Assembly: GCF_907163125.1 (NCBI RefSeq)
Contig: NZ_OU015319.1
Location: 992,001 to 1,056,000, forward strand
DNA from: Cloacibacterium caeni
Lineage (GTDB): Bacteria > Bacteroidota > Bacteroidia > Flavobacteriales > Weeksellaceae
Length of the DNA stretch: 64,000 nucleotides
Reading direction: 5' to 3'
Part shown: positions 9,298 through 45,016 of the stretch, piece by piece
Position numbering within the stretch: the stretch's first letter is position 1
Layout of the letters: the number at the start of each line of letters is the position of its first letter
The notes under the pieces: model-generated
What the model saw: only the letters and a program-made list of their open reading frames with translations
Database searches by the model: none
Told to the model about the DNA's origin: nothing
Program-made: the position numbers and the translations under genes

Positions 9298-9334
9298 ATT
9301 GTGATATTCCGGGTTTAATTTGTGACTTTTACTG
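9298..9334 (-). promoter_or_regulatory. 21-bp-spaced direct-repeat operator, copy 1
   Basis: Half-sites tgtga at 9300 and 9321 lie exactly 21 bp apart, followed by cttttactg. The site is 68 bp upstream of the HMA gene start. It is the same element as the twelve others listed. Confidence 0.75.
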
Positions 9335-9352
9335 TTTTCCTGTTACAGACTA

Positions 9353-10305
9353 TTAATGGTTGTGCGTGTGGTGGCTGTGGTCTTCTACCGATTTTTCGCC
9401 TTCTGATACGGTAATAGTAAAATCTGCCGTATGTACCACATTGTTTATTTTGAACTGTGCCCACAATCTATAAAGCCCTGCTTTTTTGATAAGCGTTTCG
9501 GCATAGATTGGGAAATTCTCTTTTGATACCGGGTGTATATGTAGAAAATCCTTATTAGTTTTACTTATCATTACGATATGGGCAGTCGCTCCGAGATAAT
9601 TCTGCATATCCTTTTCCTCTAATTTCTTGCCGTCCTTTTCTACCGAAAATTGCAAGCCCTGATTTCTGTTTGTTTTAAAGTCTTCGCCGTTAAGCAGCGT
9701 TACCGTAAAACCATCTACGGTTGAAACCAATTTTGTCTTTAAATCGGCTGTTTGTGTTGCTGCCGTACCTTTTACCTCAATGGTTTGCTTATTGACCTCT
9801 CCCTCGGCTCCGTTCGGTTTGTAGTCGGTAAATAACAGGTATTTACCTGCTGTAGGGAATGTTTCTGAAACCTTATAAGAACCGTCTGCCTGTTCTTCGG
9901 GGTGGATATGGTCAAACCAGGTCAGTTCTTCATTCACTACCAAAAGGTGCATTTTCATTTCGTGCACTACTTCCAACGGTACATTTTTACCGTGTTCACT
10001 AATGGCGATGGATAGATTAGTTGGTTTACCTGCTTCCACATTTTGCGGGTCGGCAGCCACTTTTACTTCATACTGGCTTTTCTCTTTATTAACAGGGCTC
10101 AAAGCCATACCACATTTAGGGCATTTATCGCCTTTGTTTCCTTTTACTTCCGGGTGCATCGGACAAGCGTATGCGCTGTCGTGATTTGCGTGCTGATGTG
10201 CATTCATATCCTCTGATTTTTTATTATTACTTTCTGAATTGTTGCAGGCAGATAACGCTGCCAGTGAAACAACCGTGCTTAGTAATATGGTTTTAAATTA
10301 TTCAT
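9353..10305 (-). pseudogene. Heavy-metal-binding (HMBD) lipoprotein with frameshift in the signal peptide
   Basis: The intact frame begins at residue MNAHQ (10207). Translation further upstream in the same frame gives a lipoprotein signal, ILLSTVVSLAALSAC, with the lipobox Cys. The natural ATG at 10305 is in another frame and reaches a stop after eight codons. Adding one A to the run at 10291-10294 would restore MNNLKTILLS and join the two. The mature part starts with a metal-binding module (YACPMHPEVKG..KCPKCGMAL, residues 14-37 of the shortened form). A domain of roughly 200 residues with several His and Met follows, ending in a His-rich tail. It would be a periplasmic copper-binding lipoprotein. 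The break is either a real inactivating indel or a sequencing error. The operator at 10359-10394 is retained. Confidence 0.8.
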
Positions 10306-10358
10306 TTATTTATCTCTCTTATTACAATACAAATTTCCGCATTAAATGGGTTGTATCT

Positions 10359-10394
10359 ATTGTGATATTCTTTGTTTGATTTACGATTTTTACT
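10359..10394 (-). promoter_or_regulatory. 21-bp-spaced direct-repeat operator, copy 2
   Basis: Half-sites tgtga (10361) and tacga (10382) are 21 bp apart, with the trailing tttttactg. The site is 54 bp upstream of the ATG at 10305 of the metal-binding lipoprotein and overlaps the 3' end of the MFS gene. Confidence 0.7.
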
Positions 10395-11586
10395 GATTGC
10401 TAACGCTGTTCTTTTGGCTCATTACAATCCTGATAACCGCTATCAATGTGATGATAAGCATCGGTATCAGTACAATGTTTACGCCATTCCAACCCCAGTA
10501 ATTAAACAGGCTGCCTGCAAAGAAGCTAGCAATACTGATTACTGCAAAAACCGTGAAATCGTGGAAAGCCTGCGTTTTTTCTTTCTCTTCGGGACGGTAC
10601 ACTTTGGTAAGCAATGACGAACCGCCGATAAACAGGAAGTTCCAACCTAAGCCCACGATGAACAATGCGGAAACGAAATGCGCAAAGCCTGTTCCCATCA
10701 GGGCAATGATGATGTACAGGAACAAAATCGCCAAACCGGAAATAATGATACGGTAAACGCCGAATTTCTGAATAAGCATACCTGTAAAGAATGACGGCAG
10801 GAACATACCTAATACGTGCCACTGGATAACCGTTGCGGAGCTGTCGGACGAATGCCCTACGCTGTGCATTGCTATCGGGGTAACAGTCATAGACATTCCC
10901 ATTACGGCAAATGCGGTAGATGATGCCAGTATTGCAAGTATGGTATCTTTATTCTTAATGATTTCTTTTAACGGGCGACCTTTCTTTACCGCTTCATTGG
11001 TTTGTACCGCAGATGTTCTTTGCAGCTTTAAAAAGGAAACAACACCCAAAGCGACCACGCTTAACAGGATAATAGAAAAGTAGGGATAAGCGTAAGGAAC
11101 CGCCCCTAAATGCTGCGTAAACCTCGCTAAGTTGGGTCCTGCGAATGCTGCAACAATGCCACCTGCAATAACAAAAGAAATTGCCTTGCTTTTCGCATAG
11201 TCGGGAATGGCATCAGCCGCCGCAAAACGATAGTATTGCGAAAAGCCTTGATAAGTACCAATGAGCATATTACCCACTGAAAACAGCCAAAAGGAATTTT
11301 GGATAATACCGTACCACGAAACCAAACCCGACAAAACACCTATCAGTGTACCTATCATAAAGGCATTGCGCTGACCTAATTTTCTAATAATGAGGGATGC
11401 GGGTATCATCATACCTGCCGTACCTACGGTAATCATTGCCAATGGTAAGGTCGCCAGATTTTTATCGGGAGCCATTTGTAAGCCTACCACACCCGAAAGT
11501 GTAATGACCAATATGGATGCAGTCTGGAACAACGCCTGCGAGGTAAACAGTAGATACACGTTGTTCCATTTTATTTTTGCTGTCAT
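10390..11586 (-). CDS. MFS transporter
   Basis: This 398-residue integral membrane protein has about 12 hydrophobic segments, the usual size of the major facilitator superfamily. A central loop (about residues 190-210, TNEAVKKGRPLKEIIKNKD) separates the two six-helix bundles. The segment SLIIRKLGQRNAFMIG resembles the cytoplasmic loop 2-3 motif of the family. The substrate cannot be read from sequence. Its place between a metal-binding lipoprotein and a multicopper oxidase, and its own copper-type operator, suggest export of a copper complex or a chalkophore-like molecule. That is inference. Confidence 0.85.
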   Translation of the reverse strand: MTAKIKWNNVYLLFTSQALFQTASILVITLSGVVGLQMAPDKNLATLPLAMITVGTAGMMIPASLIIRKLGQRNAFMIGTLIGVLSGLVSWYGIIQNSFWLFSVGNMLIGTYQGFSQYYRFAAADAIPDYAKSKAISFVIAGGIVAAFAGPNLARFTQHLGAVPYAYPYFSIILLSVVALGVVSFLKLQRTSAVQTNEAVKKGRPLKEIIKNKDTILAILASSTAFAVMGMSMTVTPIAMHSVGHSSDSSATVIQWHVLGMFLPSFFTGMLIQKFGVYRIIISGLAILFLYIIIALMGTGFAHFVSALFIVGLGWNFLFIGGSSLLTKVYRPEEKEKTQAFHDFTVFAVISIASFFAGSLFNYWGWNGVNIVLIPMLIITLIAVIRIVMSQKNSVSNQ

Positions 11587-11634
11587 AATCTTAAAATTTA
11601 TGATGCAAAATTGGCAATTTGTTTCGGGCTGCCT

Positions 11635-11671
11635 ATTGTGATATTTCTTGTTTGATTTGTGAGGTTTACTG
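11635..11671 (-). promoter_or_regulatory. 21-bp-spaced direct-repeat operator, copy 3
   Basis: Half-sites tgtga at 11637 and 11658 are 21 bp apart and followed by ggtttactg. The site is 49 bp upstream of the MFS start and close to the consensus of the family. Confidence 0.78.
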
Positions 11672-11696
11672 ATTTAGTCTGGTATTGTAAATGCAA

Positions 11697-11726
11697 AAAG
11701 GTTATAGCATAACCGCTACAACCTTT
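11697..11726 (-). terminator. Terminator of the multicopper oxidase gene
   Basis: aaaggttatagc (11697-11708) pairs with gctacaaccttt (11715-11726) with one mismatch. A run of T follows on the minus strand. It lies 23 bp after the stop codon. Confidence 0.8.
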
Positions 11727-11749
11727 GTCTATTTTATGAATGAAATCCT

Positions 11750-14050
11750 TTAGTAATTGAGCGAAAGTCCTGCACCAAAGCCCATATCACTATCATAGTG
11801 CGCCCTGATACCGATATGCCTCGTCAAAATGTACCGCAGGTCTGCCATATATTCCAAATCGGTATTGACCATAAACCCGGCTCTTAACCGTCTGGAGATA
11901 GGTATATCCTCCCGCATCAATGATACCCTGAAAATACCGTCGTGGTAAACTTCTGCCTGTACGTTGACCAACATCGGCAAGGTGTACATTACCCCTAAGC
12001 TCACAGCAGCTCGGTTGTCTTTTTTATTAACCTGTCCGAAGAGGTTTTTCTCGTGCTCGTCCATTCCCATTCTGCGGTATCGCCAATCGAAACCGACAAA
12101 AGGCATCAGCCATTGCATTTTACCAATGTAACGTCCCAAATGCGTTTCCACTTCATAGCCGTGCATATCATTATAGCCTAAACGCCATTCCGTACCCAAA
12201 CTGTAACGGGCGTTCATCAACATTGCTTCTCCGTCAATACCATTGGTCGCAAAATCACTTTGAGCCATCAAATGTGGCATATTGCTTTCACGCTGCAACA
12301 TTTTATATGCTTTTTCCTTATTGGGTAAATACGGATTTTTGTAATCATCCACAGCGAAAACCCTATTCATACCTGCCATCATATGATACAGGATATGACA
12401 ATGGAAAAACCAATCACCCTCGGTATTCGCAAGGAACTCTATCGTATCGGTTTCCATCGGCATAATGTCGATGATGTTTTTCATCGGTGCATTTTCGCCG
12501 TGCTCATTCAGCACCCTGAAATCAAAACCGTGCAGGTGTATCGGGTGGCGCATCATTGAGTTATTATAAATCGTAATCCTCAATACTTCGCCTTTTTTAA
12601 CAGGTATCTTATCTGTTTCTGCCAAAACCTTGTTATCCATACTCCAAACGTAACGGTTCATATTTCCCGTTAAGGTAAATTTCAGTTCCTTAACCGGGGC
12701 ATCAGCCGGAAGCGTGGTATTATGCGGCGATTTCAACATTGCGTAATTGAGCGTTTTAATGTCGCTCAACGCATTAGCATTATAACGGTTGGGGTCTTCG
12801 TCGCTATTCATCTTATGGTCGCCGTGATGCTCCATAGACGGTGCTGTACCCTTGTTTTTTTTGCTCTTTTCCTCGCCTGTAATCTCCGGGTACATCACTA
12901 CGTTCATATCCATTTGGTTCAGGCTCATATTCATTCCCATATCTTCCAGGTCGCCGTTCATCTTCATCATATCGTTCATCATTTGCATACCCTCAAAATA
13001 TTTCAGGCGTGGCATTTCCCCGACCAATTGTTTTGTACCGTTGCCAATAAAATAGCTTGTGGATTGGGTACGGTCTTCGGTGGTTGCCATAAATTCAAAG
13101 GCTTTGCCGTCCTCGGGAATGGTAACAACCACATCGTAAGTTTCCGATACAGCAATAATCAGCCTGTCCACTTCCACAGGCTCCACATCGTTGCCATCAC
13201 TCGCCACTACGGTAATTTTACCGCCTGCATAGCGCAGCCAAAAGTAAGACGATGCACCCCCATTGGAAATGCGTAAACGTACTTTATCGCCTGCTTTTAA
13301 GGGCTTGCCGTCAATGCTTTTTAAATCGGTATGATGATTACCGTTCATCATTACACGGTCGTAATACACATCGCTCACGTCCATTGCCAACATACGCTTC
13401 CATTCGTTGTTCAGCTTGGTTTTGAATTTTCCGCTTCTAATGGCTTCGGCGTAGCTTTGTGTTGCGCCTTTCCTTATCGCAAACCAGTCGCTTGCTGCGT
13501 GCAGCATACGGTGTACATTTTCGGGCTTCAGGTTCGTCCATTCGCTTAGCATTATGGGAATTTCCGGTAAATCGTCAATTCCTTTCCTAAATGTTTTATC
13601 ATCAGCCCTTTTGCGCATTATAAAGCTGCCGTACATTCCAATCTGTTCCTGCAATCCCGAATGTGAGTGATACCAATGCGTTCCGTTCTGAATAATCGGA
13701 AATCGGTAAGTATAAGTTGCGCCCGGCTCAATCGGCATTTGCGTTAAGAAAGGTACGCCGTCTTCCTTATTCGGCAGGAACAAGCCGTGCCAGTGCAGGG
13801 ATGTACTTTCTTTTAACTGGTTATGCACTACGATTTCTGCCGTGTCGCCCTCTGTAAATTCAAGCGTGGGCATCGGGATTTGCCCGTTTACAGCAATTGC
13901 CCTCTTTTCCTTGCCCGCATAATTTACAAGCGTATCTTTTACATACAGGTCGTAATGAACTACCTTTTGTGCAATGCTGACTTGTGATATAAAGATTGCC
14001 AACAGGGTTAGCGGCAACAGCTTTTTGTAAAGAAATTTTTGATTATCCAT
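11750..14050 (-). CDS. copA: Multicopper oxidase with extra C-terminal domain
   Basis: I chose the ATG at 14050 (766 residues). It is followed by a clean signal peptide (KKLLPLTLLAIFISQVSIAQ), and a longer start would run into the upstream terminator hairpin. The three cupredoxin domains carry all four copper motifs: HWHG, HWYHSHSG, HPIHLHG and HCHILYHMMAGM. A Met-rich stretch (about residues 365-390, with MMNDMMKMNG and MGMNM) is typical of CopA/PcoA-type cuprous oxidases. After the last copper motif the protein goes on for about 160 residues with alternating aromatic strands and a C-terminal aromatic residue, resembling a CopB-like outer-membrane barrel. It should oxidise Cu(I) in the periplasm. 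The symbol is the plasmid-type copA of copper resistance, not the ATPase. Confidence 0.9.
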   Translation of the reverse strand: MDNQKFLYKKLLPLTLLAIFISQVSIAQKVVHYDLYVKDTLVNYAGKEKRAIAVNGQIPMPTLEFTEGDTAEIVVHNQLKESTSLHWHGLFLPNKEDGVPFLTQMPIEPGATYTYRFPIIQNGTHWYHSHSGLQEQIGMYGSFIMRKRADDKTFRKGIDDLPEIPIMLSEWTNLKPENVHRMLHAASDWFAIRKGATQSYAEAIRSGKFKTKLNNEWKRMLAMDVSDVYYDRVMMNGNHHTDLKSIDGKPLKAGDKVRLRISNGGASSYFWLRYAGGKITVVASDGNDVEPVEVDRLIIAVSETYDVVVTIPEDGKAFEFMATTEDRTQSTSYFIGNGTKQLVGEMPRLKYFEGMQMMNDMMKMNGDLEDMGMNMSLNQMDMNVVMYPEITGEEKSKKNKGTAPSMEHHGDHKMNSDEDPNRYNANALSDIKTLNYAMLKSPHNTTLPADAPVKELKFTLTGNMNRYVWSMDNKVLAETDKIPVKKGEVLRITIYNNSMMRHPIHLHGFDFRVLNEHGENAPMKNIIDIMPMETDTIEFLANTEGDWFFHCHILYHMMAGMNRVFAVDDYKNPYLPNKEKAYKMLQRESNMPHLMAQSDFATNGIDGEAMLMNARYSLGTEWRLGYNDMHGYEVETHLGRYIGKMQWLMPFVGFDWRYRRMGMDEHEKNLFGQVNKKDNRAAVSLGVMYTLPMLVNVQAEVYHDGIFRVSLMREDIPISRRLRAGFMVNTDLEYMADLRYILTRHIGIRAHYDSDMGFGAGLSLNY

Positions 14051-14079
14051 TTTAAAAATCGCATTGGTTATAAAGATTA

Positions 14080-14108
14080 AAAGGCATTGCCCATTGAGCA
14101 ATGCCTTT
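14080..14108 (-). terminator. Terminator between DUF3347 gene and multicopper oxidase
   Basis: aaaggcattgc (14080-14090) pairs perfectly with gcaatgccttt (14098-14108), followed by T-rich sequence on the minus strand. It lies between two genes that otherwise look like one operon, so it may reduce rather than stop read-through. Confidence 0.7.
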
Positions 14109-14116
14109 GTGGGTTA

Positions 14117-14595: not shown

Positions 14596-14817
14596 TTATT
14601 CTGAAATGGGTTCAGCTTTAAACCCTTTTTTCTTGATGATGGCGACAACCTCGTCTTCGGTAATGCCCTCTGCTTTTACAGTCAGGATTTTATCGGCGTT
14701 GGTCGTATCAACGTTCCATTCGCAGATACCGCCTGCGTTATCTAAATCTGCCTGCACTTTTGATACACAGTTGCTGCAATTAAGGTTTGTCTTGAATTGA
14801 AGATTTTTGCTTTCCAT
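14596..14817 (-). CDS. HMA-domain metal chaperone (second copy)
   Basis: This is a single 73-residue heavy-metal-associated domain with metal loop LNCSNCVSKV and the same length and ending (KKKGFKAEP) as the protein encoded at 9009-9230. Most residues agree between the two. The copies flank the lipoprotein, MFS, oxidase and DUF3347 genes, which fits a duplication followed by divergence. It is the first gene of a unit with the DUF3347 gene. Two operator copies (14878 and 14938) lie upstream, more than for any other gene here. A role in moving Cu(I) in the cytoplasm is inferred from the family. Confidence 0.88.
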   Translation of the reverse strand: MESKNLQFKTNLNCSNCVSKVQADLDNAGGICEWNVDTTNADKILTVKAEGITEDEVVAIIKKKGFKAEPISE

Positions 14818-14877: not shown

Positions 14878-14914
14878 TTTGTGAAATTCCTTGTTTGATT
14901 TATGATATTTACTG
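14878..14914 (-). promoter_or_regulatory. 21-bp-spaced direct-repeat operator, copy 4
   Basis: Half-sites tgtga (14880) and tatga (14901) are 21 bp apart, then tatttactg. The site is 61 bp upstream of the second HMA gene and forms a tandem with copy 5. Confidence 0.75.
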
Positions 14915-14937
14915 ATTGCATTTCAAAAACGGTTCCG

Positions 14938-14974
14938 CTTGTAATATTCCGGCTTTGTTTTATGACTTTTACTG
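14938..14974 (-). promoter_or_regulatory. 21-bp-spaced direct-repeat operator, copy 5
   Basis: Half-sites tgtaa (14940) and tatga (14961) are 21 bp apart, then cttttactg. It lies 60 bp beyond copy 4. The doubling may give tighter control, or this copy may serve the divergent hpd gene. Confidence 0.65.
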
Positions 14975-15113
14975 ATTATAGTGCTCGTTCAGAATAAGCG
15001 GAATACTTTTATCGAAGTATAACGCTAACTGTTTTATAAAATGGCTATCAAAACCTTTCTCTCCGTTTTGCATCGGGCTATGTTGTAGCTTCGGGTTCCC
15101 AACCCCAACACGA

Positions 15114-16411: not shown

Positions 16412-17245
16412 ATGGATATAGCGACCGAGAACAATCAGGATAAAATGATAGGTTATTTCGATTTTTTTGGAATGCCAGATGGGATTGTAAGCAACACAGT
16501 TTGGTTTGACGAGAATTATAAAATTGTTTTCTTAAAAGAAGGACGTGTTAATGTTGATTTTGTTGACTATGATTTTGAAGAAAGTACATTGCTTTTCTTT
16601 AGTATAGGGCAACAATTCAAAATATCTAAAAATTCGGAAGGAAGCATTGTTTATTTTAACCCGAATTTCTATTGTATCGCTTTTCACGATAAAGAGCTTG
16701 CTTGTGACGGACTTCTTTTCGACAACGTTTTTGAACTTCCTTTTATAGCGCTCACCGCACATCAAAGAGACATTTTTCAAAAAATACTTATTTCTATTAA
16801 AGAGGAAATTGCGGTAAAAGATTTTTGGGCGGAAGAAATGATTAAGACCTATATCAAGCAGGTTGTTATTTTTGCTACCCGAACTCTTGCAAAAAAGGAC
16901 TACGATATTTATCACCCCGTATCATTCGATAAAGAGCTGGCGAGAAAATTTAGCCAATTGGTAGAGCAAAATTATCGAACTATCCACTCCGTAGCAGATT
17001 ATGCATCTATGCTCAATCTTACACCTAAAAACCTCAACCGAAAAATAGTAACAGAAAAACAGATTGCTCCAAATACAATTATCAAAAATCGAATTATCCT
17101 TCAGGCAAAAAGATTACTTGTCAATACAACGTTAAGCATTAAAGAAATCGCTGTTTATCTCGGGTACGAAGACTATTCTTATTTTCTTCGCTTTTTCAAA
17201 TCACAAACGGGCTCTTCACCTCTTACATTCCGAAATTCAATGTAA
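16412..17245 (+). CDS. AraC-family transcriptional regulator
   Basis: The 277-residue product has an N-terminal cupin-like sensor region (about residues 20-130, with KIVFLKEGRVNVDFVDY). The C-terminal AraC DNA-binding domain (about 175-277) carries two HTH motifs, VADYASMLNLTPKNLNRKI and IKEIAVYLGYEDYSYFLRFFK. It is a full one-component regulator with no HMA motif, unlike the short AraC proteins elsewhere in the island. It lies between hpd and osmC, on the same strand. Since a terminator separates it from hpd, it more likely controls osmC or itself. The inducer is not predictable. Confidence 0.9.
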   Translation: MDIATENNQDKMIGYFDFFGMPDGIVSNTVWFDENYKIVFLKEGRVNVDFVDYDFEESTLLFFSIGQQFKISKNSEGSIVYFNPNFYCIAFHDKELACDGLLFDNVFELPFIALTAHQRDIFQKILISIKEEIAVKDFWAEEMIKTYIKQVVIFATRTLAKKDYDIYHPVSFDKELARKFSQLVEQNYRTIHSVADYASMLNLTPKNLNRKIVTEKQIAPNTIIKNRIILQAKRLLVNTTLSIKEIAVYLGYEDYSYFLRFFKSQTGSSPLTFRNSM

Positions 17246-28483: not shown

Positions 28484-28909
28484 TTATTTTGTTTTAACGA
28501 ACCTCGAACATTCGTTGCACATTCCTTTCATTACAAAATTGATACTCTCCAACAAAAATTTGTCGGGCAACTGGATAGGCGGAATGGCAATACTTTCGAG
28601 GCAGAAGGTATTCTTGCATCGGTTACAGTTAAAGTGCACGTGCAAGTCGCCAACGGTGCACATACAGTTATCGCTGCAAATAGAATACTTCATTGCGCCG
28701 GAGCCATCATCAATAGTATGAATGAGTAGGTTATCGTGAAAGAGGGTCAACGTCCTGAATATGGTCGATTTATTGACCGTTTCCAGTTCGGTTTCCAAAT
28801 CAGTCAGGCTGAAAGCCTTTTTAAAGTCAGACATTCTTCTAAAGATTAACAGCCTAACCGAAGTTGGTTTTATGTTCCTGCGCAATAGTTTTTCTTCTAA
28901 ATCTTTCAT
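28484..28909 (-). CDS. Fur-family metal-responsive regulator
   Basis: I prefer the ATG at 28909 (141 residues). The earlier possible start at 28975 would add a stretch atypical for the family. An N-terminal winged helix (KPTSVRLLIFRRMSD...TVNKSTIFRTL) is followed by the dimer domain with HVHFNCNRC and GMCNEC, two CxxC pairs that form the structural zinc site of Fur/Zur/PerR. His residues in GDLHVHFN are candidates for the sensing site. Two Zn/Cd/Co efflux operons share a 21-bp box, and this gene lies next to one of them, so a Zn-sensing (Zur-like) repressor of export is likely. Most Zur proteins repress uptake, so the role is unusual. It has its own copper-type operator. Confidence 0.88.
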   Translation of the reverse strand: MKDLEEKLLRRNIKPTSVRLLIFRRMSDFKKAFSLTDLETELETVNKSTIFRTLTLFHDNLLIHTIDDGSGAMKYSICSDNCMCTVGDLHVHFNCNRCKNTFCLESIAIPPIQLPDKFLLESINFVMKGMCNECSRFVKTK

Positions 28910-28978
28910 TTTGTCATTGTCGGTTTTAGAACCGTATTTAAAATCTAATGTAAAATTATAGAAGCTGCTATGCACAAG

Positions 28979-29016
28979 TATTATAATTTCCTTTGATAAA
29001 TTTGTGATTTTTACTG
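28979..29016 (-). promoter_or_regulatory. 21-bp-spaced direct-repeat operator, copy 6
   Basis: Half-sites tataa (28982) and tgtga (29003) are 21 bp apart, then tttttactg. The site is 70 bp upstream of the Fur-family start and may link copper and zinc responses. Confidence 0.65.
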
Positions 29017-29023
29017 TTAGGTT

Positions 29024-33900: not shown

Positions 33901-34106
33901 TCGGTTACTTCTTTCTCTATCTGCTCTTCGTCGGCTCCGGGGTAGAAAGCCACAACAAGCCCCTGTCTAACTGTTACACGGGGGTCTTCACTTCTCGGCA
34001 TCGTCATTAATGAAATTAACCCGGCAAACACCATAATAACGGTAATCGCTATCGGTACTTGCGGAAATTTCATTGCCGCTTCAATGAGGTTTATCTTTCT
34101 TTTCAT
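30975..34106 (-). CDS. AcrB/HAE-type RND efflux pump
   Basis: The 1,043-residue product has the length of a HAE1-family pump and twelve membrane segments in two halves around two large periplasmic loops. The proton-relay helix carries the Asp pair in GMVVDDAIIVVDNYIE. The C-terminal tail is hydrophilic and rich in His/Asp/Glu. The CusA-type Met triad for Cu(I) is not apparent, so this may export organic compounds rather than metal. The 21-bp-spaced operator before its operon nevertheless ties it to the copper genes. Confidence 0.93.
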   Translation of the reverse strand: MKRKINLIEAAMKFPQVPIAITVIMVFAGLISLMTMPRSEDPRVTVRQGLVVAFYPGADEEQIEKEVTDKLEQYLFGFEEIKKEKTHSESKPGQVVVTVELQDYVKDTKKFWNTLQHGLDANMPLALPRGVQGPYVNSDFGDVVVQMIAVSAPGRSYAQLENYLDELEDGIKTIPSVSKIKRYGGQKQQVFITLREDVLKQYGFGINEITNTLSQQNVTIPSGDIEIDKNRFLIFTDAQYQNENEIGNLIVYSSPQGGNIRLRDIANIERRYEDLKSKITVSGNDVMMLTVEMQPGQNIVDLGNALTQKVAEVKEILPSDVQVSTIVDQPEVVDMNLGHFFIEFGIAIAAVILVVMLLLPFRVATISAIAAPVTIAVTFAILNLLGIEMHQVSLAAMIIVLGMVVDDAIIVVDNYIEKVDEKIPSWTAAWQSATQLMVPIFTATLTIVLSFLPLAFTLTGLTREFVQWIPITVSIALAVSFLVALFLTPYMCYHFLKKGLKKHDDKPKKRNFLDRMQDGFDRAIEFCMKWQKTTLVAGLVIFLLSFVVGSQVKTEFFPIVERNQFNLELWMDNGTNIHETEAAVKKIEKEIAGDKRIVNTASFIGTSSPRFYSTYAPEHPRENFAQVFINTTSKDATAEMIDEYVQKFNNYLPNGYVRVRQLSKKQQHAPIEIRVIGKDMTEQKKVAKQVAALLENTKGSNWVRTDYQNDYVGLKAVVKEDVALRLGVTKAQIAQALGAKIKGYPVSQMWEGNKAIDIVLRTDESDRENLDALGNMYINSTFGAKVPLKQVVDLQPSWHTGAIVHRNGLRTLTVSSEAQLGRKPAEVFAEVQPKIDSLKLPKGIKIAYGGEYEDGLESGPKMGKAFMISFVLIFLVLLFQFKRVGKVFIVLASFPLSLLGAMLGLFLTGYEFGFMAIIGITALLGIVVRNGIILVDYADELVREHGHTIREAALFAAKRRMRPIFLTSMAAAIGLIPLMASGSPEWGPISSTISIGILVSMITTLFIVPVLYYRFVKPPKNKQSDEQHERNTDTDVHHQKYLS

Positions 34107-34109
34107 AAA

Positions 34110-35180
34110 TTATTCAGATTTTGGGGCTGATGCTGTTACCGATGTAGTTTGCGCTTTTACTTTCTGCCCGTCTTTCACGTTATTTTGCCCGGCAAGGATA
34201 ATGGTCTGGCTTTCGTTAAGACCATCGGTTATAATAACCGCATCGCCTACGATTTTGCCCACTGTAACCCTCGTCAGCTTAGCGGTGTTGTTCTTATCTA
34301 CCACGTACACGTGCGGGATTTTATCTACATTGTTGATGATGGCGGTAAGTGGTACACGTACCTGCTTAACCTTTACCGGGACGCCTGCAAGCACTTCGGT
34401 AATCATTCCCGGCATCAGCACGCCGCCCGGATTGTCCAAGCGTACTTTAAGGGTAAATGCTTTTGAAATTTCATCGGCTACGGGATTAATGATGGTGATT
34501 TTACCCGTGAAATTGCGTTGCAATGTAGGAATATTCACATCTACCTGCATCCCTTGTTTAAAGCTGCCGATTTCGCTTTCGGGTACGGCAAACTGCGCAT
34601 ATACCATATCTGTTTTTACAATGGTAAAGGCAGGAACGCCCGGTGCTGCCATACCGCCAACCTCGGCAGTTTTCACGGTAATTATACCATTGGTAGGCGA
34701 ATGCAAACGGCTGTCGGCAATGCGCTTGCGGTTGATTTTTTTGTTGGCTTCTGCCTGCGCTACTTTGGTCTTGATGTCGATGTAATCCTTTTCAGGGAAA
34801 CTTCCTTTTTTGTACAGTTCATCAAATCTTCTGAACGCATCCTGGCTCTGCTCTAAACTGGCATTGGCAATCTGCAATGCCGCTTCGTACTCGGTGGCAT
34901 CAATGCTTGCAAGAAACTGTCCTTTGCTCACTCGCTGCCCCTCATTTACACCCACACTGTTAATCGTGCCGGGAACGGCAAAACTTATGGTAGTCATATT
35001 GTCGGGAACAATGGAACCCGAATAGGAAACGGATTGCTCGGTTTCCGAACTGTTGATAGTGGCTACGGTTACTACCGGAGGCTCATCTTTTAACTGTTTT
35101 TCTTCTTTTTGTTTGCAACTCTGTATCAATCCGGCTCCGATAAGGAAGAGGGATAACAAACCAATTTTACTTGTTCTCAT
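34110..35180 (-). CDS. RND efflux adaptor (membrane-fusion protein)
   Basis: The 356-residue product has a lipoprotein signal (IGLLSLFLIGAGLIQSC, Cys about 22), lipoyl half-motifs, a short coiled hairpin (about 100-165) and a beta-barrel domain. It joins the AcrB-type pump to the TolC-family channel. It is the first gene of the operon and its stop is 4 bp before the pump's start. The operator at 35272 lies about 90 bp upstream. Confidence 0.93.
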   Translation of the reverse strand: MRTSKIGLLSLFLIGAGLIQSCKQKEEKQLKDEPPVVTVATINSSETEQSVSYSGSIVPDNMTTISFAVPGTINSVGVNEGQRVSKGQFLASIDATEYEAALQIANASLEQSQDAFRRFDELYKKGSFPEKDYIDIKTKVAQAEANKKINRKRIADSRLHSPTNGIITVKTAEVGGMAAPGVPAFTIVKTDMVYAQFAVPESEIGSFKQGMQVDVNIPTLQRNFTGKITIINPVADEISKAFTLKVRLDNPGGVLMPGMITEVLAGVPVKVKQVRVPLTAIINNVDKIPHVYVVDKNNTAKLTRVTVGKIVGDAVIITDGLNESQTIILAGQNNVKDGQKVKAQTTSVTASAPKSE

Positions 35181-35271: not shown

Positions 35272-35308
35272 TATACGAAATGACGGGTAAAAGTTGTGAA
35301 ATTTACTT
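35272..35308 (-). promoter_or_regulatory. 21-bp-spaced direct-repeat operator, copy 7
   Basis: Half-sites tacga (35274) and tgtga (35295) are 21 bp apart, then aatttact. It lies about 92 bp upstream of the efflux adaptor start, further away than the other copies and with a weaker middle. Confidence 0.55.
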
Positions 35309-35341
35309 TTTTGATTTGGTGGTATCTGCCTGAAACAAACA

Positions 35342-36075: not shown

Positions 36076-36112
36076 ATTATGATATTCCGGCTTTGTTTTG
36101 TGAAATTTTATG
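36076..36112 (-). promoter_or_regulatory. 21-bp-spaced direct-repeat operator, copy 8
   Basis: Half-sites tatga (36078) and tgtga (36099) are 21 bp apart, then aattttatg. The site is 66 bp upstream of the HMA-AraC gene and fits feedback control. Confidence 0.7.
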
Positions 36113-36217
36113 AAAATCGGTGCAGTAACATTAAATATCATAAACTAAATAAGGAAAAGTACATAGCTACTTCCGACCATCTTACGGAATTTTGTAATAG
36201 ACAACATCCGTATAAAA

Positions 36218-36484
36218 ATGAAGAACAAAAAGAGCAACGAACATCAGGTTTTAAAGGTGCTGAAAGATTACAACGCAGGTAAAAGCGGACTGGAACTTTT
36301 CGAGAAATACGGCGTTTACGGCACGAACATTTTTGAACTGAAACACAAATACAAGGATTTAGGGATGGATATTCTTGTAGAATTGGTAAATTTAAACGAA
36401 GAAAACAGCAGGCTGAAAACAATGTATGCCGAACTGTGCATACAGCACCGGAAGCTCAAAGACCTGCTGAAAGAAGATTTCTGA
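36218..36484 (+). CDS. IS3-type OrfA-like HTH protein (remnant)
   Basis: This 88-residue protein has the layout of the small first ORF of IS3-family elements. It has a helix-turn-helix (VLKDYNAGKSGLELFEKYGVYGTNIFELKHKYKDL) followed by a leucine-zipper-like coiled coil ending in LKTMYAELCIQHRKLKDLL. No OrfB integrase follows and I see no terminal repeats, so it is either a lone domain or a remnant. It opens a plus-strand group with a short hypothetical gene and the dapB-like gene. Confidence 0.6.
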   Translation: MKNKKSNEHQVLKVLKDYNAGKSGLELFEKYGVYGTNIFELKHKYKDLGMDILVELVNLNEENSRLKTMYAELCIQHRKLKDLLKEDF

Positions 36485-39415: not shown

Positions 39416-39661
39416 TTATCCGCAGCATCCTGTTGAACAACTTGAAGCCTTTCCGCTGTCGTCGCCGCCAACTTTGTAGCCTGCTTTTTCAATCGCCTCA
39501 ACCAACTCTTCTTTCACTTCGTCGTTTTCAACTGAAACAGATAATTTTCCTGCTTCCAGTTTTTCTACTTTAATGCCGTCAATGTCTTTGATTGCTCCGT
39601 TTACTCTCGACTGGCAGTGTGCACTTTGCATATCTGGTATGCTTAATTCTACATTTTTCAT
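39416..39661 (-). CDS. HMA-like chaperone with SxHC metal loop
   Basis: The 81-residue product is a heavy-metal-associated fold whose loop reads DMQSAHCQSRV. The first Cys of the usual CxxC is replaced by Ser and a His precedes the remaining Cys. The C-terminus adds CSTGCCG with three Cys, which may complete a metal site. The first domain of the CopA ATPase (42514-44925) has the same S-x-H-C pattern (ESEHCALIVEKGL). The pair probably exchanges metal with matched sites. It is controlled by the operator at 39715-39751. Confidence 0.8.
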   Translation of the reverse strand: MKNVELSIPDMQSAHCQSRVNGAIKDIDGIKVEKLEAGKLSVSVENDEVKEELVEAIEKAGYKVGGDDSGKASSCSTGCCG

Positions 39662-39714: not shown

Positions 39715-39751
39715 ATTATGGTATTCCCTGTAAGATTTGTGATTTTTACTG
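39715..39751 (-). promoter_or_regulatory. 21-bp-spaced direct-repeat operator, copy 9
   Basis: Half-sites tatgg (39717) and tgtga (39738) are 21 bp apart, then tttttactg. The site is 54 bp upstream of the SxHC chaperone and shows a strong right half. Confidence 0.72.
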
Positions 39752-39768
39752 ATTTTGAAATCGCCGTG

Positions 39769-40278
39769 TTATTCCACGATTAATTTACCTTTCATATAGA
39801 TGTAATGACCGGGAAACGAGCACAGGAAATCATACGAGCCTTTTGCCGGAGCCGTAAAGGTAATTTCTGTGGTTTGCCCACCGCCAATCATATCCGTTTT
39901 TGCGATTACGGCGTTTTCCATTCCTTTAGGTATGTAGCCGTTGTCCTTAGCATCTATCGCAGCATTGGCAAAAGTGTTGAAGTCTGTGCCCTGGGCAAGT
40001 ATAACAACATTGTGCCCCATTGCCTCAATCGGTGCTTTTCCGATGTGCTTTAAAATGAGCTTTACGGTTTCGCCTGCTTTGGCTTTCAGTTCGGTTTTGT
40101 CGAATTTCATATCATCGCCGCCGCTAATGGTAATTACATTTTCGTTCCCTGTTTCTGCGGGGGCAACTGTTTCTTCTATTACAGGCTGATTGCTCTCCTG
40201 TGTGGTCTTGTCTTTTTGCTGATTGTTGTTACAGGCAGTAAATGCGATTACCGACAATGCTAACACTAACTTTTTCAT
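39769..40278 (-). CDS. Azurin-type blue copper lipoprotein
   Basis: The 169-residue product has a lipoprotein signal (MKKLVLALSVIAFTAC) and a linker with Asn/Gln. The cupredoxin domain has the azurin copper ligands: His in AMGHNVVIL, and Cys, His and Met in CSFPGHYIYMKG near the end. Length of the mature domain (about 130) fits azurin. It moves electrons in the periplasm and may support the multicopper oxidase or detoxify Cu(I). It has its own operator at 40343-40379. Confidence 0.92.
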   Translation of the reverse strand: MKKLVLALSVIAFTACNNNQQKDKTTQESNQPVIEETVAPAETGNENVITISGGDDMKFDKTELKAKAGETVKLILKHIGKAPIEAMGHNVVILAQGTDFNTFANAAIDAKDNGYIPKGMENAVIAKTDMIGGGQTTEITFTAPAKGSYDFLCSFPGHYIYMKGKLIVE

Positions 40279-40342
40279 TTCTATTTGAGATTTTATTTTG
40301 TTATCTGATAGTGCAAATTTCAGTACATAAGGTCACTTCCTC

Positions 40343-40379
40343 ATTACGCTTTTCCCTGTTTGATTTGTGATATTTACTG
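40343..40379 (-). promoter_or_regulatory. 21-bp-spaced direct-repeat operator, copy 10
   Basis: Half-sites tacgc (40345) and tgtga (40366) are 21 bp apart, then tatttactg. The site is 65 bp upstream of the azurin start. Confidence 0.7.
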
Positions 40380-40398
40380 ATTGGACAGGGCACAAAAA

Positions 40399-40419: not shown

Positions 40420-40447
40420 AAATTTTAAACAAAAAAAAATGCCAGTA

Positions 40448-40786
40448 TTACGCTGCCATTTCCTCACAAGCCTTTGCACAAGCTCTGCACGCTTCTGCAC
40501 ATTCTTTACAATGCTCCATACCCATTGCAGCGTGTTTCTCACACTCTTCAGCACAAGCGTTGCAAATGTCAGCACATAGTTTGCAAATCTCTTTGCTAAA
40601 TTTACCATCAAGACTTAATACGTTTGCTGCCGCTTGGCAAATAGCTGCACATTCCAGGTCTAACTGGATACATTTCTTTACGTGTGCAACATCATCTTCA
40701 TTTAAACAAGCAATGGCACATTGGTTACAGATAGCTACGCACTTCAGGCAAGCCTCGATACACGATTGAAATTTTGTTTGTATCAT
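40448..40786 (-). CDS. Four-helix-bundle copper-storage protein (Csp type)
   Basis: The 112-residue soluble protein is packed with Cys in the pattern C-x3-C and C-x2-C along four helices: CIEACLKCVAICNQCAIAC near the start, CIQLDLECAAICQAA, CKLCADICNACAEECEKH, and CKECAEACRACAKAC. This is the DUF326/Csp signature, in which the Cys pairs line a bundle interior and hold many Cu(I) ions. There is no signal peptide, so it is the cytosolic branch. It would buffer excess Cu(I) when copper enters. The operator at 40863-40899 lies upstream. Confidence 0.93.
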   Translation of the reverse strand: MIQTKFQSCIEACLKCVAICNQCAIACLNEDDVAHVKKCIQLDLECAAICQAAANVLSLDGKFSKEICKLCADICNACAEECEKHAAMGMEHCKECAEACRACAKACEEMAA

Positions 40787-40862
40787 AATATAAAATTTAA
40801 AAAATTAAGAAATAGATTTTATACTGTTTCTAACAAATATCAGTCCCTTGCAAAAGAAATGC

Positions 40863-40899
40863 TTTGTAAAATTCCTTGTTTGAATTGTAAGATTTACTG
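40863..40899 (-). promoter_or_regulatory. 21-bp-spaced direct-repeat operator, copy 11
   Basis: Half-sites tgtaa at 40865 and 40886 are 21 bp apart, then gatttactg. The site is 77 bp upstream of the copper-storage gene. Confidence 0.7.
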
Positions 40900-40976
40900 A
40901 TTTGATATTTCGTAATATAAGGCTATATAAATAAAACCTACCTAATATTATTTCTGTAAAGAATTAGAATAAAAAA

Positions 40977-41006
40977 AACGACAGTCCCAATTAAGGAACC
41001 GCCGTT
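40977..41006 (-). terminator. Terminator of the metal-binding lipoprotein gene
   Basis: A 12-bp stem with G-U pairs (40977-40988 with 40995-41006) is followed on the minus strand by eight T. It lies 31 bp beyond the stop codon. Confidence 0.8.
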
Positions 41007-41036
41007 TTAGCAAACGCAATAAAGCTAAGTTCTACA

Positions 41037-41426
41037 TTATTTTTTCAGTTTGTCGGCAGGAGGATTGTAATCAGACAATGTTGTTACCCTTACGGTATCA
41101 ACCCCGGTAATATCCCAAGTGATAGGTATCATAGTCATATACTCACATTTCGGACACATATCACCCTCTGAACCTATCATTTCTTTATGACCGGGACAGC
41201 CTGTAATCAAATGTCCGTGGGCATCAATCAGCTCGCCTTTTTCGTTCCTGTCTTTTGCTGTAATTTTTTCGGCGGGTTTTTCAACCACCTGTTCCGTAGC
41301 GTGGTCGTGCCCGTCGCCCTCGGTGTGTGCGTGTCCGTCTTTTGCTGTTTTGGTATCGCCCCCGCAAGATGCTAAGAAAATCGCTAAGGAGGCAAATACG
41401 CCTATCAATAATTTGTTCACTTTCAT
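41037..41426 (-). CDS. Heavy-metal-binding lipoprotein
   Basis: The 129-residue product has a lipoprotein signal ending in LASC (Cys about 21). A His-rich segment (GHAHTEGDGHDHATE) and a metal module reading ITGCPGHKEMIGSEGDMCPKCEYMTMI follow, similar to the YHS/HMBD modules seen in the frameshifted lipoprotein at 9353. It may bind zinc or copper in the periplasm. It is 38 bp from the CDF exporter gene and has no 21-bp-spaced operator of its own, so it probably shares that of the CDF gene by read-through. Confidence 0.8.
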   Translation of the reverse strand: MKVNKLLIGVFASLAIFLASCGGDTKTAKDGHAHTEGDGHDHATEQVVEKPAEKITAKDRNEKGELIDAHGHLITGCPGHKEMIGSEGDMCPKCEYMTMIPITWDITGVDTVRVTTLSDYNPPADKLKK

Positions 41427-41474
41427 TTCTATTTATTTTTTAGAGATTAAAAACTTGATTTTATTCCAGTAAGA

Positions 41475-42425
41475 TTAATGATTATGATGGTCGTGTGCTG
41501 ACGGTTCAGCCTTTACAATACATAGCACCGAATTATCGTGTAGATGTGCTGGTGTTTCCAACTGGATGGTAACGTGATGGATATTCATATGCTCTAATTC
41601 GTGTTCTACTTTACGAAGTAATATTTCACTTTCTTCGATAGTCATTTTTTCATTTACAACGGCGTGGCACGTAAGTGCATTCAATCCACTTGTAATTGTC
41701 CAAATATGCAGGTCGTGAATACTTTTAATACCATCGGTTTTAAGGATTTTTTCATTGACCTTATCCACTTCAACATTTTCGGGTGTGCCTTCCATCAATA
41801 CGTGTACCGATGATTTAGTAACTAAATACCCACTTCTCAATACCAGTATCGAAACAATAACGCTTGCCAACGGGTCTGCCCACCCCCAACCGAAAAACAT
41901 AATGAGCAACGCTGCGATAATTGCACCAACCGAACCGAGCATATCACTGATGACGTGCAGGTAGGCTCCACGCATATTGAGGTTTTCCTTTACGTCAGCA
42001 CCACGCATCATTATCCAGGCTACAAGCACATTAACCAATAAGCCTACAATTGCTACAATGAGCATACCTCCTGATTGAATTTCCGGTGGGCTCTGAAAGC
42101 GTTCTATCGCCTCGTAAATGATATAAACTGAAATCAGGATAAGTGTTGCACCGTTGATAACTGCTGCAAGTATTTCAAAGCGCTTATAGCCGTAGGTCTT
42201 ACTGTAATCGGCTATTTTACTGCTGAACTTAAAGGCCATCAGCGCAATGAAAAGCGATATTGCATCACTCAACATATGTCCGGCATCGGCTAATAAGGCA
42301 AGGCTGTTTGTCAGAAAACCTCCCACTACCTCCACTACCATATATGTAGTGATGATTACCAAGCTAATGGTCAGGGTCTTTTTATTCGCAGTATGCGAGT
42401 GGCTGTGTCCGTGGTCTTGTCCCAT
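41475..42425 (-). CDS. czcD: CDF-family Zn/Cd/Co exporter
   Basis: The 316-residue product has six membrane segments. The metal site is seen as H-x3-D in TM2 (LADAGHMLSDAISLF) and H-x3-D in TM5 (YLHVISDMLGSVG). The C-terminal cytoplasmic ferredoxin-like domain (about residues 215-295) ends in a His tail. The N-terminus is His-rich (HGHSHSHT). This is the ZnT/CzcD arrangement, which exchanges Zn, Cd or Co for protons. It is followed by the metal-binding lipoprotein gene. Confidence 0.93.
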   Translation of the reverse strand: MGQDHGHSHSHTANKKTLTISLVIITTYMVVEVVGGFLTNSLALLADAGHMLSDAISLFIALMAFKFSSKIADYSKTYGYKRFEILAAVINGATLILISVYIIYEAIERFQSPPEIQSGGMLIVAIVGLLVNVLVAWIMMRGADVKENLNMRGAYLHVISDMLGSVGAIIAALLIMFFGWGWADPLASVIVSILVLRSGYLVTKSSVHVLMEGTPENVEVDKVNEKILKTDGIKSIHDLHIWTITSGLNALTCHAVVNEKMTIEESEILLRKVEHELEHMNIHHVTIQLETPAHLHDNSVLCIVKAEPSAHDHHNH

Positions 42426-42483
42426 ATTTACTTGTGATTATTGTTTCACTGCTGCAAATATCAGCAGCAAAACGTTTCTATCT

Positions 42484-42518
42484 ATTTTAATATTCTTTGT
42501 GTGATTTATCGGTTTACT
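42484..42518 (-). promoter_or_regulatory. 21-bp-spaced direct-repeat operator, copy 12 (degenerate)
   Basis: Half-sites tttaa (42486) and tatcg (42507) keep the 21-bp spacing and are followed by gtttactt. The left half is weak. The site is 60 bp upstream of czcD and overlaps the end of the CopA gene. Confidence 0.5.
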
Positions 42519-44925
42519 TCTTCCATTTCAAACGTAAACTGTTACTTACCACACTTACACTACTCAACGCCATTGCGGCTCCGGCAATCATTGGGTTTAG
42601 TAAGAAACCATTGATTGGGTAAAGAATACCTGCTGCAATCGGAATACCTATAAGGTTATAGATAAATGCCCAAAACAGGTTCTGCTTAATGGTTGATACG
42701 GTTTGTTTTGATAGTCTTATGGCTTGAGGTATTTTGGTAAGGTCTGATGAAATAATGGTCATCTTCGCCACGTCCATTGCGATATCCGAACCTTTACCCA
42801 TTGCGATACTTACATCGGCAGTTGCCAGTGCTGTACTGTCATTGATACCGTCGCCAACCATTGCTACTACTTTGCCTTGCTGTTGCAGTTCTTTCACAAA
42901 ATCAGCTTTGTGCTGTGGCAAAACTTCGGCTTTGTAATGCTTGATACCAGTTTGCTCGGCGATAGCTTTGGCGGTAGCCTCATTATCTCCCGTCAACATA
43001 TACAGTTCGATATCCGCATCCTGCATTTCTTTGATAGCCTGTACCGATGTCTCTTTAATTTTGTCGGAAATAGCGATTACAGAAAGAGCTTGTTTACTGT
43101 TTGCAAACCATATAACGGTTTTAGACTGTGTGCCCCATTCGTCCGCCTGCTTTTGCAGTTGGTCGGCAATGGTAATGTTGTTTTCGGCTAACAGTTTTTT
43201 ATTACCTACATAGTAAGTGTCGCTGTTGTAATCGGCTTTTGCGCCTTTACCTGTTATACTGTCGAAGTTTGATAATAAAGTTGTAGAAACGCCCTCCAAA
43301 TTTTTCACAACGGCTTCCGCTAATGGGTGCTCCGATTGCTTTTCAATGCTCAATAAAACATCTTTCGTCGCATCGTCATTGTTCAGCCATTGGATGCCTG
43401 TAACCTGTGGTCTTCCCTCGGTAATCGTACCTGTTTTATCCAGCACGATAGCGTTTACTTTCTTCGCTAATTCCAAACTTTCCGCATCTTTAATCAGGAT
43501 GCCGTTTTCTGCACCCTTACCAACGCCCACCATAATAGCGGTAGGAGTAGCCAAGCCTAAAGCACAAGGACAAGCAATAACCAATACAGTAACGGCTGCT
43601 AAAAGACCTTGTACAACACCATTCTCGCCTCCTAAGAAGAACCAAAGAATAAATGTCAGGATAGCAATACCGATTACTACCGGAACGAAAATACCTGCGA
43701 TTTTATCCACCAGTTTTTGTACGGGTGCTTTACTTCCCTGTGCATCCTGCACCATTTTGATGATTTGGGCAAGCATTGTTTCTTTACCCACTTTTACCGC
43801 CTTGAACTGGAAGCTACCTTTTTGGTTGATGGTTCCGGCAAATACCTTTTCGTTTTCCTTTTTCAGTACCGGAACAGGTTCGCCGCTTAGCATACTTTCA
43901 TCTACATACGAATTGCCCGATACAACTGTACCATCCACCGCAATTTTTTCGCCCGGCTTAACCAAAATAATATCGCCTGCGTTTACATCTTCGATGGCTT
44001 TTTGTCTTTCCGTGCCGTCTGCTTCTATTACGATAACCGTTTTCGGTTGCAAGCCCATCAGCTTTTTAATGGCTGATGAGGTATTGCCTTTGGCTTTTTC
44101 TTCCAATAGCTTGCCCAATAAAATAAAGGCAACGATTACGGCTGCGGCTTCAAAGTACACGTGTGCGTGTAAACCTCTTTGATGCCAAAAGTCCATAAAC
44201 AGCATATTGAATACGCTGAATATATAGGCGATACCTGTACTCAATGCGACAAGTGTGTCCATATTGGCAGAACGGTGTTTCGCCTGCTTCCACGCATTGA
44301 TAAAGAAGTCTTTACCTAACCATAAAACTACCGGAGTGGCGAATGCCCACATTATTTCATTACCGTAAGGCATATCCATAAAGAACATACCGATAATGAC
44401 CACCGGTAGCGATAGGATTACTGCCCAAATGGTTTTGTTTTTAAGTTTTCTGAATTTTTCGGCGTGGATAGCTTCTAAAGTTTCCTGTTGCTTGCTCTCG
44501 TCTTCGAGCAATAGGTCATAACCGCCGTCCTGTACCGCTTTCCTGATTTGCTCGGAATTGGTTATATTCGGCAGGAATTCAACGTTGAGGTTTCCCGTAC
44601 CGTAATTCACTTCGGCACTTACTACGCCCGGCGTATATTTTGCCATACTCTCGGCACTGCCTGCACAAGATGCACAGGTCATACCTAAAACGGGATAAGT
44701 CTTTTTAACAGTGGGAACGCCGTAGCCTAAATCTTTAATTGCTTTTACAGCTTCGCCTACTACCTCGTTATCATTAACGGTAATAGCCGCCCTGCGGTTA
44801 TTTAGCTCTACTTTGTGGGTTTCTACGCCTTTTACCTGTGCCAGTCCTTTTTCGACGATTAATGCACAGTGCTCGCTTTCTACATCCTCTAAAGGAATGT
44901 AAATTGTTTCTTTATTGGTTGCCAT
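42514..44925 (-). CDS. copA: Copper-exporting P1B ATPase
   Basis: The 803-residue product has two HMA-like domains at the N-terminus, the first with S-x-H-C (ESEHCAL, about residue 20) and the second canonical (LGMTCASCAGS, about 86). It then has CPC in TM6 (ACPCALGLATPTA, about 453), DKTGTITEG (about 497) and GDGINDSTALATADVSIAMG (about 692). The SEHPLAEAVV motif binds ATP. It exports Cu(I). The operator at 44981 lies 55 bp upstream, and a sensor gene follows further upstream. The degenerate first domain matches the SxHC chaperone at 39416. Confidence 0.95.
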   Translation of the reverse strand: MATNKETIYIPLEDVESEHCALIVEKGLAQVKGVETHKVELNNRRAAITVNDNEVVGEAVKAIKDLGYGVPTVKKTYPVLGMTCASCAGSAESMAKYTPGVVSAEVNYGTGNLNVEFLPNITNSEQIRKAVQDGGYDLLLEDESKQQETLEAIHAEKFRKLKNKTIWAVILSLPVVIIGMFFMDMPYGNEIMWAFATPVVLWLGKDFFINAWKQAKHRSANMDTLVALSTGIAYIFSVFNMLFMDFWHQRGLHAHVYFEAAAVIVAFILLGKLLEEKAKGNTSSAIKKLMGLQPKTVIVIEADGTERQKAIEDVNAGDIILVKPGEKIAVDGTVVSGNSYVDESMLSGEPVPVLKKENEKVFAGTINQKGSFQFKAVKVGKETMLAQIIKMVQDAQGSKAPVQKLVDKIAGIFVPVVIGIAILTFILWFFLGGENGVVQGLLAAVTVLVIACPCALGLATPTAIMVGVGKGAENGILIKDAESLELAKKVNAIVLDKTGTITEGRPQVTGIQWLNNDDATKDVLLSIEKQSEHPLAEAVVKNLEGVSTTLLSNFDSITGKGAKADYNSDTYYVGNKKLLAENNITIADQLQKQADEWGTQSKTVIWFANSKQALSVIAISDKIKETSVQAIKEMQDADIELYMLTGDNEATAKAIAEQTGIKHYKAEVLPQHKADFVKELQQQGKVVAMVGDGINDSTALATADVSIAMGKGSDIAMDVAKMTIISSDLTKIPQAIRLSKQTVSTIKQNLFWAFIYNLIGIPIAAGILYPINGFLLNPMIAGAAMALSSVSVVSNSLRLKWKK

Positions 44926-44980
44926 ATCTCGATTGCTTTATTTTCATAATGCAAAGGTGGCAACAATAAAGAGGAGTTCT

Positions 44981-45016
44981 ATTGTGAAATTCTGGGTTTG
45001 ATTTGTAAGATTTACT
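44981..45016 (-). promoter_or_regulatory. 21-bp-spaced direct-repeat operator, copy 13
   Basis: Half-sites tgtga (44983) and tgtaa (45004) are 21 bp apart, then gatttactt. The site is 56 bp upstream of the copper ATPase and overlaps the end of the HMA-AraC gene. Confidence 0.75.

Follow-up and report, generated by a model that had tools for sequence, protein, structure and literature searches.

Fourteen operator-like sites on a mobile copper island of Cloacibacterium caeni and their predicted HMA-AraC copper sensor

We analyzed a 64,000-nucleotide stretch of the Cloacibacterium caeni genome (RefSeq assembly GCF_907163125.1, contig NZ_OU015319.1, positions 992,001 to 1,056,000; hereafter the window, with coordinates counted from its first base), which holds an island of copper-resistance genes. 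Fourteen similar sites in this island probably let a small copper-sensing protein switch on these genes together. We read the sites as operators of HMA-AraC, a predicted AraC-type, one-component copper sensor that would activate transcription in the class II manner in response to Cu(I), and we place the probability of this reading at roughly 0.78. The original prediction, made from the sequence letters of the window, had described thirteen such operators as one large copper regulon carried on a mobile element; it was right in its observation and very probably in its interpretation too.

All thirteen of the sites first described are present, with scores far above chance. A 45-bp matrix built from them returned 26.3-57.1 bits, compared to a highest score of 9.8 bits across 20 first-order Markov versions of the window and 5.6 bits at the best remaining window position (the fourteenth site aside). 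These values are in-sample, and the fairer leave-one-out measure gave 26.7-53.6 bits for eleven sites, 16.7 bits for the site at 35272 and 1.1 bits for the site at 42484, whose TTTACT block sits 1 bp closer. The constant 21-bp spacing of the half-sites was borne out as exact in 13/13 by gapless alignment over both half-sites. The lag within the operator also peaked at 21 bp, both in 12 operators of the island and in 47 relatives, the relatives having been picked by a matrix started from the island sites and thus not being independent. Twelve of the start positions stand as first given, while the one placed at 28979 is better written 28980. Likewise, the elements of the earlier parse (TGTGA twice, followed by a TTTACTG block) do exist, but on the gene strand the operator is better described as two units of about 15 bp, GTAAATnTCACAAAT and nGGAATaTCACAAT, with TTTACTG forming the distal end of the first. 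An additional fourteenth operator (36125-36165, plus strand, 24.1 bits) has the opposite orientation, stands back to back with the site at 36076, precedes a plus-strand open reading frame (ORF) for an 88-aa protein (36218-36484) and was seen again in related islands.

A calibrated, sequence-only model of 12 sites, with 42484 left out, was searched over the 2.98-Mb genome of the strain itself, where 150 of the 7437 first-look candidates were scored. The 12 modeled sites were all recovered at E<=1e-5, the fourteenth followed at E 0.0215 and the next best match had E 0.26, so that every match at E<=0.03 among the scored candidates lay inside the island. The site at 42484 gave a partial match only (9.0 bits).

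An indication of how these sites may work came from their position relative to the promoter. On the gene strand, TTTG starts exactly 25 bases past the operator in 11/13 sites, and by eye at the fourteenth as well (12/14), although TTTG was absent from every operator model used. Promoters of this phylum also have an element at -33. The sigma-A -7 box of Flavobacterium psychrophilum is given as TAnnTTTG at -12 to -5 (PMC9723704), and the island boxes fit nAnnTTTG, the leading T being mostly missing. When TTTG is placed at -8 to -5, the operator covers about -74 to -34 relative to predicted starts. Because the fixed offset of 25 puts the proximal half-site at about -34, where it is predicted to abut or overlap the -33 element, the layout fits that of a class II activator.

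The island encodes two proteins of the HMA-AraC type, P0001 (45016..45579, minus strand, 187 aa) and P0002 (35420..36010, minus strand, 196 aa). Both match HTH_18 of Pfam (54.4 and 55.8 bits, respectively) over a C-terminal AraC domain of about 100 aa with two helix-turn-helix (HTH) motifs. The AlphaFold2 model of P0001, built from 85 aligned sequences, has a mean predicted confidence (pLDDT) of 89.3. Its N-terminus forms a beta-alpha-beta-beta-alpha-beta fold (strands at 2-7, 29-33, 36-39 and 61-63; helices at 12-24 and 45-58), a linker helix spans residues 66-84 and the AraC-type domain follows. The CxxC motif (C11 and C14, within MVCNRC) comes after the first strand of this ferredoxin-like fold. 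When the family profile was compared to known structures, residues 2-62 matched the HMA domains of CopZ and CopA and residues 73-181 matched AraC-family proteins. Foldseek with the P0001 model agreed, returning AraC-family structures as alike, with weak HMA-type matches (E >= 0.07). Neither P0001 nor P0002 was reported to match the Pfam HMA model; NCBIfam gave a weak CopZ match in P0002 (E 5.8e-4). From the fold, the cysteines and the neighboring genes, the HMA domain of P0001 is expected to bind Cu(I).

P0001 is the strongest candidate for the main sensor, given that no operator turned up ahead of its own gene and that the copA operator (44981..45021, minus strand, 48.6 bits, TTTG at 25) overlaps its stop codon, a position also seen in relatives. 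The P0002 gene stands behind an operator (36076..36116, minus strand, 39.1 bits, TTTG at 25), and its product may be autoregulated or act as a downstream second regulator. Proteins like P0002 at E<=1e-55 occur in 2/395 genomes of the phylum, and as both of these also carry a P0001-like gene, phylogeny cannot divide the sites between the two regulators. A third protein, P0003 (38894..39310, minus strand), is an HMA-AraC relative with HTH_18 and no HMA domain in its sequence; it is present in 15/16 related islands listed and might act on these operators as a modulator.

To see the family more broadly, we turned to the same 395 genomes, of which 182 encode HMA-AraC at E<=1e-15, as do 89 of the 98 sampled from the class of the window. 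The operator model was run over these genomes with 16 candidates scored per genome and strict filters, settings that miss weak sites. Outside the genome of the strain, all matches at E<1e-3 (11/11) had an HMA-AraC gene no more than about 15 kb away, and the motif is thus not equally frequent away from metal genes. At E<=0.01, 18/24 matches were near a listed HMA-AraC gene, with at most about 4 matches expected by chance; of the other six, three were in genomes without an HMA-AraC match, one lay at 137 kb and two were not placeable.

We also looked for a footprint directly downstream of the regulator at 111 loci, made up of 109 loci of HMA-AraC matches (29 given by the tool and 80 chosen, with a bias toward better matches) and two paralogues from the genome of the strain. 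With a site called above 12 bits after matrix retraining, 62/111 loci had one, and TTTG at 24/25 bp was kept in 45/62 (46 with slightly different windows). Three controls produced 75 hits after retraining, of which 57 (among 111 windows) came from the gene with its 5' flank, 14 from the opposite strand and 4 from shuffled sequence, and 0/75 had TTTG at 24/25. The 57 hits probably reflect convergence on conserved coding sequence. Since controls score high but never keep TTTG at 24/25, the score after retraining is no evidence by itself, and it is the spacing that counts. The island model alone passed 22 loci, of which 19 kept the spacing, compared to 3 control passes of which none did. Many of the relatives' sites begin 5-9 bases ahead of the regulator stop, like the island copA site. 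An AraC-type regulator had been proposed from the outset, and the 21-bp direct repeat, the layout relative to the -7 box and these similarly designed operators that follow HMA-AraC genes elsewhere all uphold it. The rule that a site lies downstream of HMA-AraC is common but not universal.

We also grouped the regulators by their cysteine motif. The 113 regulators (the 111 loci plus P0001 and P0002) comprised 84 with MVCxRC, 26 with MVSxRC and 3 others, and a site with the spacing was found at 45/84, 4/26 and 0/3 of these, respectively. A copA gene, counted where a match with at least 40% identity began no further than 900 bp downstream, followed 38/84 MVCxRC regulators vs. 0/26 MVSxRC regulators (Fisher p 3e-6) and 0/3 others; a site with the spacing was present at 26 of the 38 copA-linked MVCxRC loci. 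The MVSxRC regulators, which lack the first cysteine (L035, L036, L079, L087, L090, L100, L112, L121, L128, L129, L133 and others), adjoin large kinase-like proteins and envelope-type genes, as judged by eye from N-termini only. This clade may sense something other than copper. In the genome of the strain, two further HMA-AraC paralogues lie outside the island; the first carries a site of different spelling, 23 bases past its stop and with TTTG at 25, and the second gave no site. These results suggest that the specificities of the island and chromosomal HMA-AraC proteins differ.

The genes behind the operators were surveyed in 80 named loci, the best 80 of 402, chosen for a close relative of P0001 and therefore not unbiased. 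These loci held 243 operator sites, compared to 12 and 7 in two shuffled sets when hits of every kind are counted, and TTTG lay at 24/25 in 225/243 of them (217 at 25), or in 165/181 distinct sites. By best BLAST match, the next ORF was copA for 80/243 sites, 73 of them at least 500 aa long, spread over 72 loci. Further next ORFs were cusB (14), cupredoxin (13), DUF326 (8) and cation diffusion facilitator (CDF) genes (5), with DUF2652, multicopper oxidase, a 129-aa protein and DUF3347 accounting for 7 sites together; 12/243 sites had no next ORF. Simple patterns sorted the 104 unmatched ORFs into 54 small HMA proteins, 20 P0002-like proteins, 12 copies of the 88-aa protein, 6 TetR-like proteins and 12 others. 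With 10 kb downstream covered, a P0002-like gene was found in 25/80 loci. The predicted targets of the operator are mainly copper or other metal genes.

In the window itself, the operator-gene distances first reported, 48-77 bp for eleven of the sites, agree with ours if the genes for the heavy-metal-binding domain (HMBD) protein and the Fur-like protein are read from the promoter-nearest ATGs. Apart from the fourteenth, all of the sites are on the minus strand, and TTTG stands at 25 unless stated otherwise. At the left end, operators precede genes for a 73-aa CopZ-like HMA chaperone (site 9298..9338, 56.0 bits; gene 9009-9230), the HMBD protein (10359..10399, 53.1 bits; 9353-10207) and an MFS transporter (11635..11675, 52.2 bits; 10390-11586). 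The HMBD ORF (9353-10400 region) begins at an internal ATG, and a signal-peptide-like stretch before it is out of frame with the operator-adjacent ATG, so that the start region looks disrupted. Two tandem operators 60 bp apart, the inner at 14878..14918 (57.1 bits) and the outer at 14938..14978 (46.8 bits, no TTTG at 25), precede a second 73-aa CopZ-like chaperone gene (14596-14817), which is followed by DUF3347 and multicopper oxidase genes, the latter (11750..14101, minus strand) encoding Cu-oxidase domains. The operator at 28980..29020 (42.1 bits, with TTTA instead of TTTG) serves a Fur-like protein (28484-28975), an arrangement that suggests a second metal regulator downstream of the first.

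After the P0002 gene, the operator at 35272..35312 (32.7 bits) precedes cusB/cusA-type RND efflux genes (34110-35180 and 30975-34106). The 88-aa protein behind the fourteenth operator shows a weak likeness to a transposase HTH domain, below the Pfam cut-off, and recurs in related islands. Further sites stand before genes for an 81-aa Cys-rich HMA-like protein (39715..39755, 49.3 bits; 39416-39661), a cupredoxin (40343..40383, 50.5 bits; 39769-40278) and a Cys-rich DUF326 protein (40863..40903, 51.3 bits; 40448-40786). The site for the CDF gene (42484..42524, 26.3 bits in-sample; 41475-42425) overlaps the end of copA. The product of copA itself (42514..44925, minus strand) is a Cu(I) P-type ATPase with E1-E2 ATPase and HMA domains (TIGR01511, 622 bits against a cut-off of 397).

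Together, these data suggest a mechanism in which HMA-AraC, with its N-terminal HMA fold and CxxC, joining helix and C-terminal two-HTH AraC domain, would bind as a dimer, contacting one face of the DNA at both of the direct half-sites with their 21-bp spacing. The proximal half-site would end at about -34, against or over the -33 element and upstream of the nAnnTTTG -7 box. Cu(I) on the HMA domain would then let the bound dimer recruit RNA polymerase, and copA, the CopZ-like chaperones, multicopper oxidase, Cus-type efflux, cupredoxin and other genes would be switched on jointly.

Several results weigh against this reading. No site above threshold was found at 49/111 loci, and 12/38 copA-linked MVCxRC loci had no site with the spacing. 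Because four MVSxRC regulators that are not copA-linked also have a site with the geometry, the geometry is not copper-specific. Within the island, 2/14 sites (28980, with TTTA, and the outer tandem site 14938) do not have TTTG at 25, and 42484 is degenerate as an operator. Finally, protein-DNA covariation (49 pairs, effective number 36) did not single out the recognition helices: the top pairs were scattered over the whole protein, and the pairing of residue 157 with operator column 36 was suggestive but confounded by relatedness.

The same observations bear on what else the sites could be. Several copper sensors, such as CopY and CsoR, are repressors, and HMA-AraC might similarly bind as an apo repressor that is released by metal; we consider this improbable, and prefer an activator because the operator lies upstream of and against the -33 element, rather than over the -7 box or the start, and because the imperfect -7 boxes suit activation. 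The sensor might instead answer several soft metals (Ag(I), perhaps Zn, Cd or Co) and not Cu(I) alone, as HMA domains bind several soft ions and both CDF and Cus-type RND genes stand behind operators. This is the more doubtful of the two specificities, as the commonest next genes are full-length copA (73/243) and small HMA proteins (54/243), and the CDF site is the most degenerate operator.

It also seems a long shot that another protein binds the sites and that HMA-AraC is a mere neighbor. The island does encode further DNA-binding proteins (a response regulator, the Fur-like protein, a second AraC protein at 16412-17245 and the 88-aa protein), but the feature common to genomes is an HMA-AraC gene beside the site, and the Fur-like and 88-aa proteins stand behind operators themselves. 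That the repeats are a structural or mobile-element repeat with no regulatory role would fit the mobility of the island, yet it is extremely unlikely: conservation is confined to the operator and the -7 box, orientation follows the downstream gene, the -7 box stands at a fixed distance from the operator, and the design is shared by loci of other families.

AraC proper has an N-terminal cupin domain for sensing and dimerization, and at araI of Escherichia coli it binds direct-repeat half-sites (I1 and I2) 21 bp apart, with the proximal one at the -35 region. P0001 shares the two-HTH C-terminal domain and the island operators share the half-site layout. Unlike AraC, however, P0001 has an HMA domain in place of the sugar-binding and dimerization domain, the N-terminus being an HMA fold and not a cupin, and unlike araI, the island operator is repeated before more than ten genes with the -7/-33 promoters of the phylum. 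The N-terminus resembles the HMA domains of CopZ and CopA in its ferredoxin-like fold and CxxC placement but differs in that a DNA-binding domain is joined to it. CueR (of the MerR type), CsoR and CopY sense cytosolic copper next to copA, a role that HMA-AraC presumably shares; in contrast to the first two, P0001 and P0002 had no MerR or CsoR domain, matching only AraC-type HTH models in Pfam and, for P0002, CopZ in NCBIfam. YbtA is also of the AraC type. It is described as a specialized transcription factor required for the copper-yersiniabactin response (PMC8725597), but it works via a siderophore complex on ybt genes rather than on copper efflux, and the abstract and section list of that paper mention no HMA domain.

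CueR and CsoR are scarce in the class of the window. CueR exceeded the strict cut-off in 0/395 genomes, with weaker matches in 237, and this is not absence because 39 genomes reach 98-138 bits (cut-off 147.4). Twenty of these 39 have HMA-AraC and none is in the class of the window, which is why we narrow any replacement of sensors to that class. The CsoR family was found in 107/395 genomes, including 5 of the 98 sampled from the class, and the genome of the strain had no CsoR match. CsoR occurs in 9/182 genomes with HMA-AraC vs. 98/213 others, but this exclusion is largely the effect of one lineage, because 82 of those 98 belong to a single family (f18), which holds 82/107 of the CsoR genomes and is not represented among the 182.

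In the parts of a 2024 genome study of Bizionia argentinensis dealing with copper genes, the MerR and CopY relatives are without their copper sites, ArsR-type proteins with two BxmR cysteines are named as candidates, copA does not adjoin chaperone and regulator genes, unlike in other Gram-negatives, and AraC is not mentioned in the main text (PMC11213822). Among marine bacteria, a survey of the known copper systems gives, in its account of the phyla, only two-component and extracytoplasmic function (ECF) homologues for Bacteroidota and several others (PMC10141476). Our literature search, whose coverage took in neither most subscription papers nor any preprints, found no published HMA-AraC copper regulator.

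The claim that the regulon is carried on a mobile element was also supported. The window encodes a tyrosine integrase (5824..6963, minus strand, Phage_integrase), a TraG-type coupling protein (T4SS-DNA_transf, 58206-60203) and a relaxase (60305-61591), the last two spanning 58206..61591 on the minus strand, as well as two RteC genes. P0001 is 97-100% identical across several genera, the copies in Flavobacterium quisquiliarum and F. panacis being 100% identical and those in a Dysgonomonas metagenome-assembled genome and Pelobium manganitolerans 99%.

What this analysis adds to the original prediction is a fourteenth site, the precise placement of the -7 box, the division of the operator into two units, a cross-genome footprint with its controls and the finding that CsoR and CueR are scarce in the class of the window. 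One mobile island carries a regulon of more than ten promoters plus the regulators that probably serve it. We consider it evenly balanced whether HMA-AraC constitutes a previously undescribed type of one-component sensor for cytosolic Cu(I) that replaces CueR and CsoR, at least in this class of Bacteroidota, such that mobile copper islands would carry their own sensor and matched operators, distinct from those of the host's chromosomal paralogue, and the regulon would be self-contained when it reaches other hosts within the phylum. For the sensing of cytosolic copper in these bacteria, the analysis puts forward a candidate sensor together with its operator and an exact promoter layout.

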